In this document: piece after piece, positions 9,814 to 13,810 of the stretch
How the letters are laid out: every line of letters begins with the position of its first letter
Numbering within the stretch: the stretch's first letter is position 1
Assembly (NCBI RefSeq): GCF_023716665.1
Contig: NZ_CP071859.1
Location: forward strand, 806,001-870,000
DNA length: 64,000 bases
Reading direction: 5' to 3'
Source of the DNA: Vibrio sp. SCSIO 43135
Lineage (GTDB): Bacteria > Pseudomonadota > Gammaproteobacteria > Enterobacterales > Vibrionaceae
Translations under genes and position numbers: made by a program
The notes under the pieces: generated by a model
The model's database searches: none
The model's input: only the letters and a program-made list of their open reading frames with translations
What the model was told of the DNA's origin: nothing

Positions 9814-10728
9814 CTATTCTTGATGTTGAAGTAGGTTTCTTAAAGCTGGCTCGATTCTAGAGTAGCTAAATCGAAAACCTAACTCGGTCAGTTTTTTCGG
9901 TTTTGCTCTAACGCTATCTAATAGCAGTGATGAGCTTTCACCCATGATAAGTTTGATACCCCATTTAGGCACAATTCCCAAGTGAGGTCGGTGAAGGGAT
10001 TTCGCGAGTGTTTGGCTAAATTCTTTATTTGTAACAGGATGGGGAGCGCTCAGGTTGAACTCTCCATTGGCGTGTGAGGTATTAAGCAAGAAGGTGATGG
10101 CTTTGACTGCATCTAGTATGTGAATCCAAGGGATATATTGTTTTCCACTCCCAATCGGTCCACCTAGGCCAAACTTATAGGGAGGTAGCATTTTTACCAG
10201 CGCTCCACCCTCTAGTGATAGCACCACGCCGGTACGTAATAGACAAACCCGAGTATTCTCGGAACGAGCTCGTTTAGCAATAGTCTCCCATTGATCGCAT
10301 ACCTCATGGGCAAATCCTGTGCTGCTAGAGTGTAGGCTTTCGTCAAAGGGATGAGCTTGTTGATCGCCGTAATAGCCTACGGCTGAACCGCTAATAAACA
10401 CGGAAGGCGGCTCAGTACTTGCGTGAATGAGCTCTACCAACTTTTCAGTAAGATTCCAGCGGCTATTGCAGATTTGTTTTTTTTGGGTGGCATTCCACCG
10501 TTTATCAGCGATCGGCTCTCCTGCTAAATTGATCACTGCGTCGAAGTCATTGAAGTCATGCAATTCATCTAAACTGGATAGGTAGGAGATATTGCCAAGG
10601 TCCACATGGGCGAGCTTACGTTTGGCGTTTGAAATATTTCTACTGAGTACGACAACTTGGTATGTTGTAAGATGTTTTAGCAGTTCCCGACCGATAAGCC
10701 CTGAACCTCCTGTTAACAGTATCTTCAT
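9814..10728 (-). CDS. YfcH-type epimerase (TIGR01777 family)
   Basis: The 304-residue extended-SDR protein has an N-terminal Gly-rich dinucleotide site (TGGSGLIGREL, about 6-16), the NLAGEPIADKRW segment characteristic of TIGR01777 proteins, a GYYGD motif with the catalytic-region Tyr, and a C-terminal DUF1731-like end (LDSVRAKPKKLTELGF). The biochemical reaction of this family is not established. The start is firm, with AAGGAGGGG seven bases before the ATG. It is the first gene of a two-gene unit with the SDR downstream. Confidence 0.9.
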   Translation of the reverse strand: MKILLTGGSGLIGRELLKHLTTYQVVVLSRNISNAKRKLAHVDLGNISYLSSLDELHDFNDFDAVINLAGEPIADKRWNATQKKQICNSRWNLTEKLVELIHASTEPPSVFISGSAVGYYGDQQAHPFDESLHSSSTGFAHEVCDQWETIAKRARSENTRVCLLRTGVVLSLEGGALVKMLPPYKFGLGGPIGSGKQYIPWIHILDAVKAITFLLNTSHANGEFNLSAPHPVTNKEFSQTLAKSLHRPHLGIVPKWGIKLIMGESSSLLLDSVRAKPKKLTELGFRFSYSRIEPALRNLLQHQE

Positions 10729-10947: not shown

Positions 10948-11682
10948 ATGGATACGCTGCGAGCGCTGTTACGGGCGATGTTGAGTAGTGCGAGGGATCT
11001 ACTCCCGATTGTAGCGGTTATTGCGTTTTTCCAACTTGTAGTGCTGCAAGAACCCCTTCCCAACATTGTATCCATTGCATTTGGCCTATTGCTGGTGGTA
11101 TTAGGCTTAACTTTTTTCATCTTTGGATTGGAGATGGGGCTATTTCCTATTGGGGAAGCAATGGCACAAGCTTTTGCTCGCAAAGGAAGTGTAGTTTGGC
11201 TACTTATTTTTGCTTTTTGTTTAGGATTTGGCACAACGGTTGCCGAGCCTGCTTTAACCGCGGTTGCTGATGAAGCCGCGGATGTGGCGGCTGAAGGTGG
11301 GATGATCGAAAGCAGTGAACTTGGTAAAGAAGAGTATGCTAATGGTTTGAGATACACCGTTGCGTTATCGGTCGGTATTGCAATCATGGTGGGCGTGCTT
11401 CGAATCCTAAAAGGCTGGCCAATTCACTACATGATTATTGGTGGTTATATTGGTGTCGTTATTCTCACCGGGTTTGCACCAGATAACATAATCGGTATCG
11501 CCTATGATTCTGGTGGTGTTACGACGTCTACTATCACTGTTCCTTTGGTTACTGCGTTAGGTGTTGGGCTTGCATCGTCAATTAACGGAAGAAATCCGAT
11601 GATCGATGGCTTTGGCCTTATTGCTTTCGCGTCGCTATTACCGATGATGTTTGTAATGATCTATGGGATGGTGCTGGCATGA
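10948..11682 (+). CDS. DUF1538 membrane protein, subunit A
   Basis: Polytopic inner-membrane protein of 244 residues with about six hydrophobic segments. Signature motifs are [15 protein letters not shown] (58-72), [10 protein letters not shown] (92-101), [11 protein letters not shown] (185-195) and [10 protein letters not shown] (214-223). The next gene repeats all four motifs in the same order, so the pair is an ancient duplication. Many DUF1538 proteins carry both halves in one chain; here they are two genes overlapping by ATGA. Transport is inferred only from membrane topology and conserved Gly/Pro/acidic residues in the membrane. It is first in an operon with a PII-like and a CBS protein, which suggests nucleotide-controlled transport. 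The start is supported by AGAGGGGCAAG. Confidence 0.85.
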
Positions 11683-12473
11683 TTGCGTTGACCACATTCA
11701 CTAACACCCTGTTTGATACCATTATGGATGTGATACCTATTGCATCGATTCTTTTCGGTTTCCAATTCGCAATTTTACGCCGCCCAATCAACAACCTTTC
11801 GAGTGTTTTGTTGGGCTTTGTCTATGTCATCTTGGGGTTGTCCCTGTTTCTAATAGGTTTAGAACTCGCTTTGTTTCCGTTAGGCGAGACTATGGCAAAG
11901 CAGCTTACCGCTCCCCATTTTTTAGCAAATTTCAAAGTCACGTTACAAGGTGCCTTGAGCTGGGTGGATTACTACTGGGTTTACTTGTTTGCTTTTTGTA
12001 TTGGCTTTAGTACCACAATTGCAGAGCCTTCCCTTATTGCAGTCGCAATGAAAGCAAGTGAAGTATCAGGAGGCAGTATTAGTGTTAATGGGTTACGCGT
12101 TGCTGTTGCGATTGGTGTGGCGGTTGGTATTTCATTGGGCTGTTACCGTATCGTAGTCGGCGATCCTATTCACTATTACATCATCGCTGGGTATGTTGTT
12201 GTAGTGATACAAACTTTCTACGCACCCAAACTCATTGTGCCGCTGGCTTATGATTCGGGGGGAGTGACAACCTCAACGGTGACGGTGCCATTGGTTGCTG
12301 CATTAGGCTTGGGGTTAGCTTCTACTGTTCCTGGGCGAAATCCAATGATCGACGGCTTTGGCTTAATTGCTTTTGCTAGTTTATTTCCAATCATCTCGGT
12401 GATGGCGTATGCCCAAATCACGCAGTGGCTGAACCGAGGTGCCAACCCTAAGGAGAGCAACAATGCGCTTTAA
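11679..12473 (+). CDS. DUF1538 membrane protein, subunit B
   Basis: Second DUF1538 protein, 264 residues, with about six membrane segments. Motifs matching subunit A are [15 protein letters not shown] (59-73), [10 protein letters not shown] (108-117), [11 protein letters not shown] (190-200) and [10 protein letters not shown] (219-228). It is slightly longer, with an insertion around residues 75-100. The start codon overlaps the stop of subunit A (ATGA), and its end overlaps the PII-like gene by 11 bp, so the four genes are translationally linked. A two-subunit pseudo-symmetric channel or carrier is the simplest model. The substrate is unknown. Confidence 0.85.
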
Positions 12474-12813
12474 ATTGATTTTGGCCTTTGTCGAAGAAGC
12501 TAAAACTGACATCGTTCTTGATGCTGCGCGAAGTGCTGGAGCGACAGGGGCAACAGTCATTAATCACGCAAGAGGTCAGGGCCTAAACAAAAAGCGAACC
12601 TTTTTTGGGCTCACGCTAGAGGTGCAAAAAGACGTTCTGTTGTTTGTTGTAGAAGAGCATCTAGCACGGCACATATTGGAAACTATTAGTGAAGTAGGGG
12701 AGTTTGATCAGGAATCAGGGCAGGGGATTGCGGTTCAGATTGATGTTGAAGATGCGGTTGGTGTTGCCCACCAAGTTGAGACATTGACTAAAGTGGTTGA
12801 GGATGAGTTATGA
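12463..12813 (+). CDS. PII-like signalling protein of the DUF1538 operon
   Basis: The 116-residue protein has the alternating beta-alpha-beta layout of PII proteins: [14 protein letters not shown] (strand 1 and helix 1), AGATGATVINHARGQG (strand 2 and T-loop entry), a short T-loop, LLFVVEEHLARHILETI, then GQGIAVQIDVEDAVGV at the C-loop position. The canonical T-loop tyrosine used for uridylylation is not evident and the loop is short, so control by nucleotide binding without GlnD modification is more likely. I chose the ATG at 12463 (AAGGAG seven bases upstream) rather than an upstream frame start inside the previous gene. It overlaps the preceding gene by 11 bp and the next by 4 bp. Confidence 0.82.
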   Translation: MRFKLILAFVEEAKTDIVLDAARSAGATGATVINHARGQGLNKKRTFFGLTLEVQKDVLLFVVEEHLARHILETISEVGEFDQESGQGIAVQIDVEDAVGVAHQVETLTKVVEDEL

Positions 12814-13217
12814 ACAATCGAGATACAGTCAAAGTACAAGATGTAATGGCCAATACATATGTCATTGTGGATGGTTTAACTACGGTACATGAAGGCATCG
12901 AGTTGGCGAGAAAGCATAGCGTGAAAGCGCTTATTGTAAAGAAACGTCACGATGATGATGAATTCGGCATTGTATTGATGAATGACATCGCGAAAAAGGT
13001 GTTGGCGAAAAACCGCTCCCCGAAACGAACCAATATTTATGAGATTATGACTAAACCAGCGTTGTCGGTAGACCCAGACATGAACGTCAAGTACTGTGCT
13101 CGTCTGTTTGAACGTTTTGGTATTAGTAGAGCGCCTGTGATTCGGCAAGGCGAAGTCCTTGGTATGGTCAGTTACAACAATATTGTCGTGAATGGCATGG
13201 CAAGGGATGACGAATAG
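12810..13217 (+). CDS. Tandem CBS-domain protein of the DUF1538 operon
   Basis: The 135-residue protein consists almost entirely of one CBS pair: the first motif is VQDVMANTYVIVDGLTTV with FGIVLMNDIAKKV, the second is IYEIMTKPALSVDPDMNV with LGMVSYNNIV. CBS pairs bind adenine nucleotides such as AMP or ATP and often gate transporters or enzymes. No other domain is attached, so it is probably a stand-alone sensor acting on the membrane pair or the PII-like protein. The start overlaps the preceding stop (ATGA). It ends the operon; yfcE begins 47 bp later with its own ribosome site. Confidence 0.88.
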   Translation: MNNRDTVKVQDVMANTYVIVDGLTTVHEGIELARKHSVKALIVKKRHDDDEFGIVLMNDIAKKVLAKNRSPKRTNIYEIMTKPALSVDPDMNVKYCARLFERFGISRAPVIRQGEVLGMVSYNNIVVNGMARDDE

Positions 13218-13264: not shown

Positions 13265-13810
13265 GTGAAACTCTTTTTTGCCTCTGACCTACACGGTTGT
13301 TTAGTTGCAACTGAACGTGTGCTTGAGAAGTTCGAACAATCGGGTGCACAAACGTTAGTATTATTAGGTGATACGCTCAATCACGGACCACGAAACCCTG
13401 TTCCTGAAGGGTATAACCCACCTAAAGTGGCCGAGCGTCTTAATCAATATACCGACTCCATCATCGCGGTACGCGGAAACTGCGACAGCGAAGTGGATCA
13501 AATGTTACTCGAGTTTCCAATGATGACTGATTACTCATGGATACTGCTCGAAGAGCATAAACGGATCTTTCTTACTCACGGGCATTTATACAACCAAGAT
13601 AAACGTCCAAATCTCAAATCTGGAGATGCCATTGCACATGGACATACACACATTCCATGTGCTGAGTGGGTTGATGATATTGTAGTGTTTAACCCTGGTT
13701 CAGTGACGTTTCCTCGGCAAGAGTTCCCGGCTAGTTATGGTCTGTATGATAATGGTCCGTTTCAGGTAGTAAGCTTTGAAGGTGATATTATCGCAGAGAC
13801 TGATTTTTAA
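13265..13810 (+). CDS. yfcE: YfcE-type metallophosphodiesterase
   Basis: The 181-residue calcineurin-like phosphodiesterase carries all metal-site motifs: DLHG (8-11), GDTLNHG, GNCD, THGH and GHTH. E. coli YfcE hydrolyses phosphodiester model substrates with Mn2+; its physiological substrate is not settled. A GTG start at 13265 is preferred because GAGGAG lies eight bases upstream and MKLFFASDLHG is the conserved beginning. It follows the DUF1538 operon at 47 bp and may be its last, looser member. A mobile-element-like repeat starts 11 bp after the stop. Confidence 0.93.
   Translation: MKLFFASDLHGCLVATERVLEKFEQSGAQTLVLLGDTLNHGPRNPVPEGYNPPKVAERLNQYTDSIIAVRGNCDSEVDQMLLEFPMMTDYSWILLEEHKRIFLTHGHLYNQDKRPNLKSGDAIAHGHTHIPCAEWVDDIVVFNPGSVTFPRQEFPASYGLYDNGPFQVVSFEGDIIAETDF

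Follow-up and report, generated by a model that had tools for sequence, protein, structure and literature searches.

A four-gene unit in Vibrio sp. SCSIO 43135 links a UmpAB-like DUF1538 membrane pair to a PII-like and a CBS-pair protein

Introduction

How do cells stop cation/proton antiporters from draining the proton gradient? This general question is raised by four overlapping genes in a 64,000-nucleotide stretch of DNA from Vibrio sp. SCSIO 43135 (contig NZ_CP071859.1, positions 806,001 to 870,000; hereafter the window). Two of the genes encode membrane proteins with a DUF1538 domain (subunits A and B), the third a PII-like protein and the fourth a stand-alone pair of CBS domains. Their coding regions overlap by 4 bp (A/B, at an ATGA), 11 bp (B/PII-like) and 4 bp (PII-like/CBS). 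A preliminary description, made from the letters of the window, had given these genes, coordinates and overlaps, all of which agreed with the list of open reading frames (ORFs) and the sequence. It had also called the genes the best candidate in the window for an undescribed system, and DUF1538 a domain for which no established function was known. The second statement is outdated, since NCBIfam holds UmpA and UmpB models and a UmpAB antiporter has been published (PMC5484666); for the same reason the transporter type is not undescribed. The question at this locus is then what a PII-like and a CBS protein do beside such a transporter.

The results showed that the four-gene unit is real; close relatives have either all of it or none of it. 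We consider it probable, with clear reservations, that the four genes make up one functional unit, in which a UmpAB antiporter would be gated by a trimer of the PII-like protein and the CBS protein would supply a second adenylate input.

The four genes are inherited together

Among 99 genomes of the genus, the window's own included, genes for DUF1538, PII-like and CBS proteins were present in the same 79 and absent from the same 20 (PII-like profile, E up to 0.001; CBS, E up to 1e-30). The unit is bounded in the window by a gene for an Epimerase and DUF1731 protein on the left (9814..10728, reverse strand) and a gene for a calcineurin-like phosphoesterase on the right (13265..13810, forward strand; Metallophos_2), both assigned by Pfam, which we take to be yfcH-like and yfcE-like, respectively. 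The yfcE-like gene was present in 9 of the 10 unit-negative genus genomes searched, and in all nine that were opened it stood 89–765 bases from the yfcH-like gene; the 4.5 kb read at each of these nine empty sites contained no DUF1538, PII or CBS match.

The order DUF1538-DUF1538-PII-CBS was found in 99 of the 111 nearest loci, a set of 80 genome contigs, 29 phylum-sample loci and two overlapping loci of the own genome, in which species may recur. Four of the 12 exceptions have no PII gene and end within 230 bases, and six have the PII gene and end within 360 bases. The remaining two are L111, which is considered in the Discussion, and L112, which has no CBS gene within its 1,101 remaining bases.

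Linkage in the class and the phylum

The UmpA model detected DUF1538 in 126 of 369 genomes of the class. One locus was read from each of 109 positives, those with the stronger of the listed matches; the 17 left out, among them the own genome, G007 and G050, were mostly weaker. The exact order A-B-PII-CBS occurred in 100 of the 109 loci. A PII gene was present in 104 and a CBS gene in 102, the latter share being biased upward by the choice of stronger matches, as divergent fused versions in the phylum are often without CBS. Four of the five loci without PII run into a contig end in less than or up to 230 bases, and the fifth is L272 (see Discussion).

In the phylum sample of 299 genomes, DUF1538 was found in 116 and the PII-like gene in 121; 112 genomes had both, nine had PII only, four DUF1538 only and 174 neither. 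The PII-like gene was thus present in 112/116 DUF1538-positive versus 9/183 DUF1538-negative genomes, an association whose Fisher p-values ignore relatedness. When 20 loci were chosen for diversity, PII stood beside DUF1538 in 18 and CBS in seven. The comparison across genomes that had been suggested in the preliminary description revealed a linkage conserved far beyond the genus. The contrary situation that it had envisaged, in which the PII-like and CBS genes are usually unlinked to DUF1538 elsewhere, was not observed for PII at any level, nor for CBS in the nearer relatives; in divergent loci CBS is an accessory.

Two further kinds of locus were seen in the phylum. Loci L133–L147, from several families, contain members of the PII branch without DUF1538 directly beside them, and near several of these copies are genes named, by their translations only, as acetylglutamate kinase, SH3-like protein or an ntrB/ntrC-like pair. 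At L127 (6556-10669) a fused DUF1538 gene, a PII gene, a CBS gene, a second PII gene and a split DUF1538 pair follow each other on one strand, so that two subtypes surround one CBS gene.

Plasmids and Bacillota

A tblastn search of 72,556 plasmid records gave UmpA matches in nine (E up to 1e-5) and PII-like matches in eight (E up to 0.01), all eight being within the nine, of which seven were opened. Two alphaproteobacterial plasmid loci have two DUF1538 genes (the first is short in L156) and a P-II gene. In the five Bacillota loci of the plasmid collection, a single gene or frame holds both DUF1538 domains and a P-II frame comes after it, and in four of the five (L153, L157, L158 and L159) two PII domains were detected in tandem beside the fused DUF1538. 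The stretches read of these seven loci contained no match to the CBS family of the window, which was seen mostly in proteobacteria and in L076, a metagenome-assembled genome titled Polarisedimenticolaceae. The sequence comparisons thus make DUF1538 plus PII look like an ancient core and CBS like an accessory addition.

The membrane pair is homologous to UmpAB

Subunit A (umpA-like, 244 residues, 10948..11682) and subunit B (umpB-like, 264 residues with a hydrophilic C-terminal tail, 11679..12473) are both on the forward strand and both far exceed the gathering cut-off of DUF1538 (PF07556; 237.1 and 231.6 versus 22.6 bits). The four motifs that had been noticed in the same order in both proteins were confirmed, and A and B are 52% identical. 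The best NCBIfam models were UmpA for A (386 bits, cut-off 490) and UmpB for B (353 bits, cut-off 500). None of the 369 class genomes passes the strict UmpA cut-off, which is therefore narrow, and we file A and B as a homologous pair of UmpA/UmpB, not as equivalogs.

UmpAB of Halomonas zhaodongensis, an exchanger type described in 2017, was cloned by its rescue of Escherichia coli KNabc, in which growth at 0.2 M NaCl requires both genes. The two proteins co-precipitate, and everted vesicles display Na+(Li+,K+)/H+ antiport that varies with pH and is optimal at pH 9.0; the pair was described as a hetero-dimeric antiporter (PMC5484666). A and B of the window may, like their Halomonas homologue, form a two-subunit monovalent cation/proton antiporter. 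The listing of DUF1538 in a table within the section on key pH-adaptation genes of a 2026 machine-learning study (PMC13255231) agrees with a function in pH homeostasis.

An AlphaFold2 model of A, built from a 45-row alignment (mean predicted local distance difference test score, pLDDT, 89.9), was all-helical with two broken helices. The first (82–98/101–116, break at 99–100) surrounds the AEP motif and the second (179–191/197–210, break at 192–196) the SGGVTTST motif. E100, P101 and D187 were each conserved in 493 of 494 DUF1538 half-domains, counted after removal of identical sequences, rows shorter than 80% of the query and rows with runs of X. The charged residues reported as conserved in UmpAB are three arginines, two aspartates and one glutamate (PMC5484666); R135, R152, R215, D187, D220 and E100 of A are of the same kinds and are invariant in the 45-row alignment. 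In the model, the acidic and hydroxyl residues at or near the helix breaks would fit an ion-binding site. Searches with A gave no convincing fold match (Foldseek, best E 0.55; VIA-align, best Z 5.4) and no solved relative of UmpA by sequence; as one half of a pseudo-symmetric pair was used in the fold search, the absence of a match does not mean a new fold.

The PII-like protein belongs to a branch lacking canonical residues

The third gene (12463..12813, forward strand) encodes 116 residues scoring 44.6 bits against P-II (PF00543; cut-off 25). Its model had a mean pLDDT of 76.6, with the T-loop poorly defined, and matched solved PII proteins with Z up to 11.5, including SbtB bound to adenosine monophosphate (AMP) (6mmo; Z 10.5 over 82 residues). 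Pfam finds three P-II genes in the own genome and the PII-like profile finds one place; on this ground the identity of the protein with ordinary GlnB/GlnK, which the profile as a rule passes over, was rejected.

Alignment with GlnB and GlnK of the own genome showed that the protein retains the TGxT turn as well as the glycines in the loops on the nucleotide side, and that there is a five-residue deletion after the shortened T-loop, which has no tyrosine, as the preliminary description had noted. In GlnB and GlnK this tyrosine is the uridylylation site, and the B-loop lysine and C-loop arginines of GlnB hold the phosphates of adenosine triphosphate (ATP). The window protein has neither the tyrosine, nor the lysine, nor the first C-loop arginine of GlnB/GlnK, and an amtB or glnA linkage is absent, its neighbours being DUF1538, CBS and phosphoesterase genes.

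The same pattern extends across 251 rows of the branch. T31 (251/251), G38 (250) and G88 (249) are conserved. The T-loop is without any tyrosine in 238 rows, carries one placed elsewhere in 12 (ten in TFFGLTY or a close variant, two at other places) and is of the canonical type in one (L149). The B-loop lysine is replaced in 250 rows (I 200, V 23, M 10, L 9, F 7, Y 1) and kept in L149; the position of the first C-loop arginine is occupied by glycine in 239 rows and by arginine in none, and that of the second by arginine in nine. Because the adenosine side of the site is kept and the phosphate ligands are lost, these residues would point to an AMP-like ligand. The T-loop typically reads K/R-T-F-F-G-L-x-L-E-x-Q-R/K-D, a conserved signature that would be the contact to UmpAB.

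Genomes L124 and L148 have two systems each, of different DUF1538 subtype, and PII proteins associated with the same DUF1538 subtype were 76% and 38% identical across the genomes, versus 28% and 30% for different subtypes within one genome. Judged by these identities, the PII protein tracks its own DUF1538 pair rather than the host genome, as expected of partners; the comparison covers two genomes, and the 38% case has a modest margin over 28–30%. PII distances correlated with those of A and B at 0.82 to 0.83, which may reflect shared ancestry.

Some members of the branch differ from the rest. L149 (genome G256) has the longer canonical T-loop together with the B-loop lysine; it is a weak match in a genome without DUF1538, and weak PII matches in DUF1538-free genomes were also seen in G147, G259 and G285. 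The T-loop tyrosine at a position other than that of GlnB (TFFGLTY or close variant) occurs in L087, L122, L127, L129, L275, L277–L279, L281 and L282, several of which adjoin fused DUF1538 proteins.

The CBS protein resembles the CBS part of CBS-CP12

The last gene (12810..13217, forward strand) encodes a 135-residue protein that matches PF00571 in two stretches (57.9 bits; cut-off 24). The closest solved sequence was CBS-CP12 (5nmu; E 8.7e-25 by sequence, 6.2e-34 by profile). CBS-CP12 combines a CBS pair with a CP12 domain; the window protein matches the CBS part up to residue 127 or 128, which leaves no space for the CP12 tail. CBS-CP12 forms hexamers and binds AMP, according to a review (PMC9406205), and by resemblance the CBS pair is a probable second adenylate sensor. 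The PII and CBS genes overlap in 118 of the 177 loci having one of each, which fits coupled expression. Among solved CBS pairs, that of cyanobacterial CBS-CP12 was the closest to the CBS family of the window, which is possibly related to the source of the CBS-CP12 fusion.

Discussion

The presence of sensor genes beside UmpAB suggests an exchanger switched by the energy state of the cell. In the mechanism that we infer, UmpA and UmpB would be the two subunits of an inner-membrane antiporter of monovalent cations and protons, and the PII-like trimer would bind an adenine nucleotide in its inter-subunit clefts. By analogy with GlnK/AmtB and SbtB/SbtA, the bound nucleotide would decide whether the T-loop is inserted into the cytoplasmic side of UmpAB, so that exchange is stopped or tuned. 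The CBS pair, where present, would bind AMP or ATP as a second energy input. The net effect would be to match the exchange of Na+/K+ for H+, which costs proton-motive force, to energy charge: at high AMP or low ATP, exchange would be shut or slowed and the proton gradient spared, although the sign of the control could be opposite. The preliminary description had proposed a two-subunit transporter or channel that a PII-like and a CBS protein place under dual nucleotide control. The membrane pair, the partners and their linkage bear out its outline and the dual control would be part of the mechanism above, but the place of CBS has to be refined to that of an accessory, given its frequency in the loci chosen for diversity and its absence from the seven plasmid loci opened.

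Several observations weigh against gating of UmpAB by these partners. In L272 a DUF1538 frame stands alone, and the 3,989 bases that follow it contain no PII; in L111, PII is likewise absent from the 737 remaining bases. Two of the loci chosen for diversity, L123 and L131, carry the DUF1538 pair but not PII, and in L131 the pair is followed by a short frame and a GTPase-like frame. In the phylum sample, G172, G218, G236 and G245 have DUF1538 without a PII match (the DUF1538 matches of G218 and G236 are fragmentary), and the nine PII-only genomes, like the PII-branch genes that stand apart from DUF1538, show the converse. In the genus genome G299 the PII gene is in two pieces, with a stop inside one. 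CBS is absent from many divergent versions: L259 has none in 2,824 remaining bases, and wider reads at three of the exceptional places among the nearest loci (L115, L126 and L143) showed it to be truly absent beside PII. No frame joined DUF1538 with PII or CBS among 443 single and 33 double DUF1538 frames (duplicates included). A and B of the window miss the strict cut-offs of NF041627 and NF041628. The evidence for antiport comes from the proteins of one species in E. coli KNabc, where Halomonas UmpAB was active without PII or CBS partners from its own locus (PMC5484666). Since UmpAB alone works there, the sensors are dispensable for basal activity and would therefore be brakes or tuners. Finally, PII-gated transporters appear to be restricted to trimers, according to a review, whereas UmpAB was reported as a hetero-dimer (PMC5484666).

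The unit has likenesses to several known systems. As in SbtA-SbtB, a transporter gene and a dedicated PII-like gene share one operon; SbtB binds AMP and inserts its T-loop into the bicarbonate transporter SbtA (PMC8352866). The analogy is one of mode of action. SbtB-like binding of AMP or cyclic AMP in the clefts would be compatible with the fold match to SbtB-AMP, and, unlike SbtA-SbtB, the partner in the window matches only DUF1538 in Pfam, the C-terminus of the PII-like protein has no cysteine and there is an additional CBS protein. In AmtB-GlnK a transporter gene is likewise linked to a PII gene, and GlnK plugs AmtB directly by its T-loop (review, PMC10710835). However, the window PII lacks the T-loop tyrosine, B-loop lysine and first C-loop arginine, and its partner is not an ammonium channel by Pfam. 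PII-NG genes stand beside CzcABC metal/proton pumps (PMC7726332, citing Sant'Anna 2009), also a divergent PII next to a cation/proton exchanger; in the window the partner is DUF1538 instead of a heavy-metal pump and the gene lies between DUF1538 and CBS, a distinction drawn from gene neighbourhood. With the cyanobacterial CBS-CP12 protein the unit shares the CBS pair and lacks, as described, the CP12 tail.

UmpAB itself is also among the closest known systems, and the unit shares with it paired, overlapping DUF1538 genes. Vibrio xiamenensis homologues fall in the UmpA/UmpB clusters of that study (PMC5484666); this species is L068 in our set, where A is 75% identical to A of the window and the full four-gene order is present. 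Unlike the window, the published 4.2-kb fragment has umpB as its last-numbered ORF, and the main text of the article nowhere uses the words PII, P-II or CBS (PMC5484666). We found no link of the PII branch or the CBS family to UmpAB in the open-licence papers searched, and the examined passages of a 2023 review that tabulates PII-regulated transporters do not include this link (PMC10710835). According to a review, the known targets of PII proteins include the transporters of ammonium and bicarbonate as well as the ATP-binding cassette importers of nitrate and urea. The UmpAB transporter is already known, and the unit would be a further case of PII-controlled transport and not a new kind of system.

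We more tentatively entertain a wider version of UmpAB gating by PII, which we consider somewhat less likely than not. It would add a further PII-gated transporter family beside Amt and SbtA, in which a widespread, adenylate-only PII branch is dedicated to a monovalent cation/proton antiporter. Energy charge would then switch the homeostasis of pH and of Na+/K+, with CBS as a second AMP/ATP input. UmpAB would be a trimer of A+B matching the PII trimer, and in Bacillota the fused DUF1538 would have its counterpart in the tandem PII.

The alternative that survives best is that the DUF1538 pair mainly carries another substrate, such as bicarbonate or another anion coupled to a cation, its antiport in E. 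coli being a side activity. In that case the role of the PII-like and CBS proteins would be to couple uptake to the carbon and energy status of the cell, in the manner of SbtB with SbtA. The match of the PII-like model to SbtB-AMP and the loss of canonical phosphate ligands are compatible with this, as is the origin of the nearest solved CBS pair from a regulator of the Calvin cycle, and papers citing UmpAB report similar antiport in several unrelated families, so that the screen may be permissive. We nevertheless regard it as unlikely, because Na+, Li+ and K+ antiport was measured in everted vesicles and full rescue required both subunits (PMC5484666), and because DUF1538 is tabulated in a section on key pH-adaptation genes (PMC13255231).

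It is also conceivable that the genes for the PII-like and CBS proteins share a transcript with those of the antiporter but that their products act on other targets, such as enzymes or transcription, under salt or alkaline stress. PII-branch copies without DUF1538, some of them near acetylglutamate kinase or ntrB/ntrC-like genes, would be explained in this way, and so would the lack of a frame joining PII to DUF1538. On the other hand, PII accompanies DUF1538 whether split or fused, on plasmids as well as in Bacillota, and the PII and DUF1538 subtypes go together in the two genomes with two systems that were compared, which makes such targets improbable. A chance or hitchhiking association of functionally unlinked neighbours could be argued from compact gene order, which by itself is common in bacteria, but we rejected it as extremely improbable on the linkage counts, in view of the same presence pattern in 99 genomes and the conservation at class and phylum level.

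If gating of UmpAB by the PII-like protein is true, PII signalling would extend to ion and pH homeostasis, through a branch dedicated to a Na+(K+)/H+ antiporter. The unit also hints at what a PII-like branch and a CBS family, so far annotated by domain alone, may do and, being small and wholly present or absent between close relatives, it is directly testable.

Regulatory signals, gene start and position of the locus

No Rfam family was found at the unit in the window at the gathering threshold, the single S15-leader match being weak (E 0.16) and far below it, and control by a riboswitch was rejected on this basis. At 14 other loci the only Rfam family at the gathering threshold was one transfer RNA. 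Promoter and terminator scans of the sequence found no more than scans of shuffled sequence.

The window is on the larger contig of a two-contig genome of 4.98 Mb, and the closest relatives by locus comparison were Vibrio species. The mechanical ORF list starts the PII-like gene at GTG 12439. We placed the start at ATG 12463, which appears to be the better choice because it is preceded by a Shine-Dalgarno-like sequence (AAGGAGAG).

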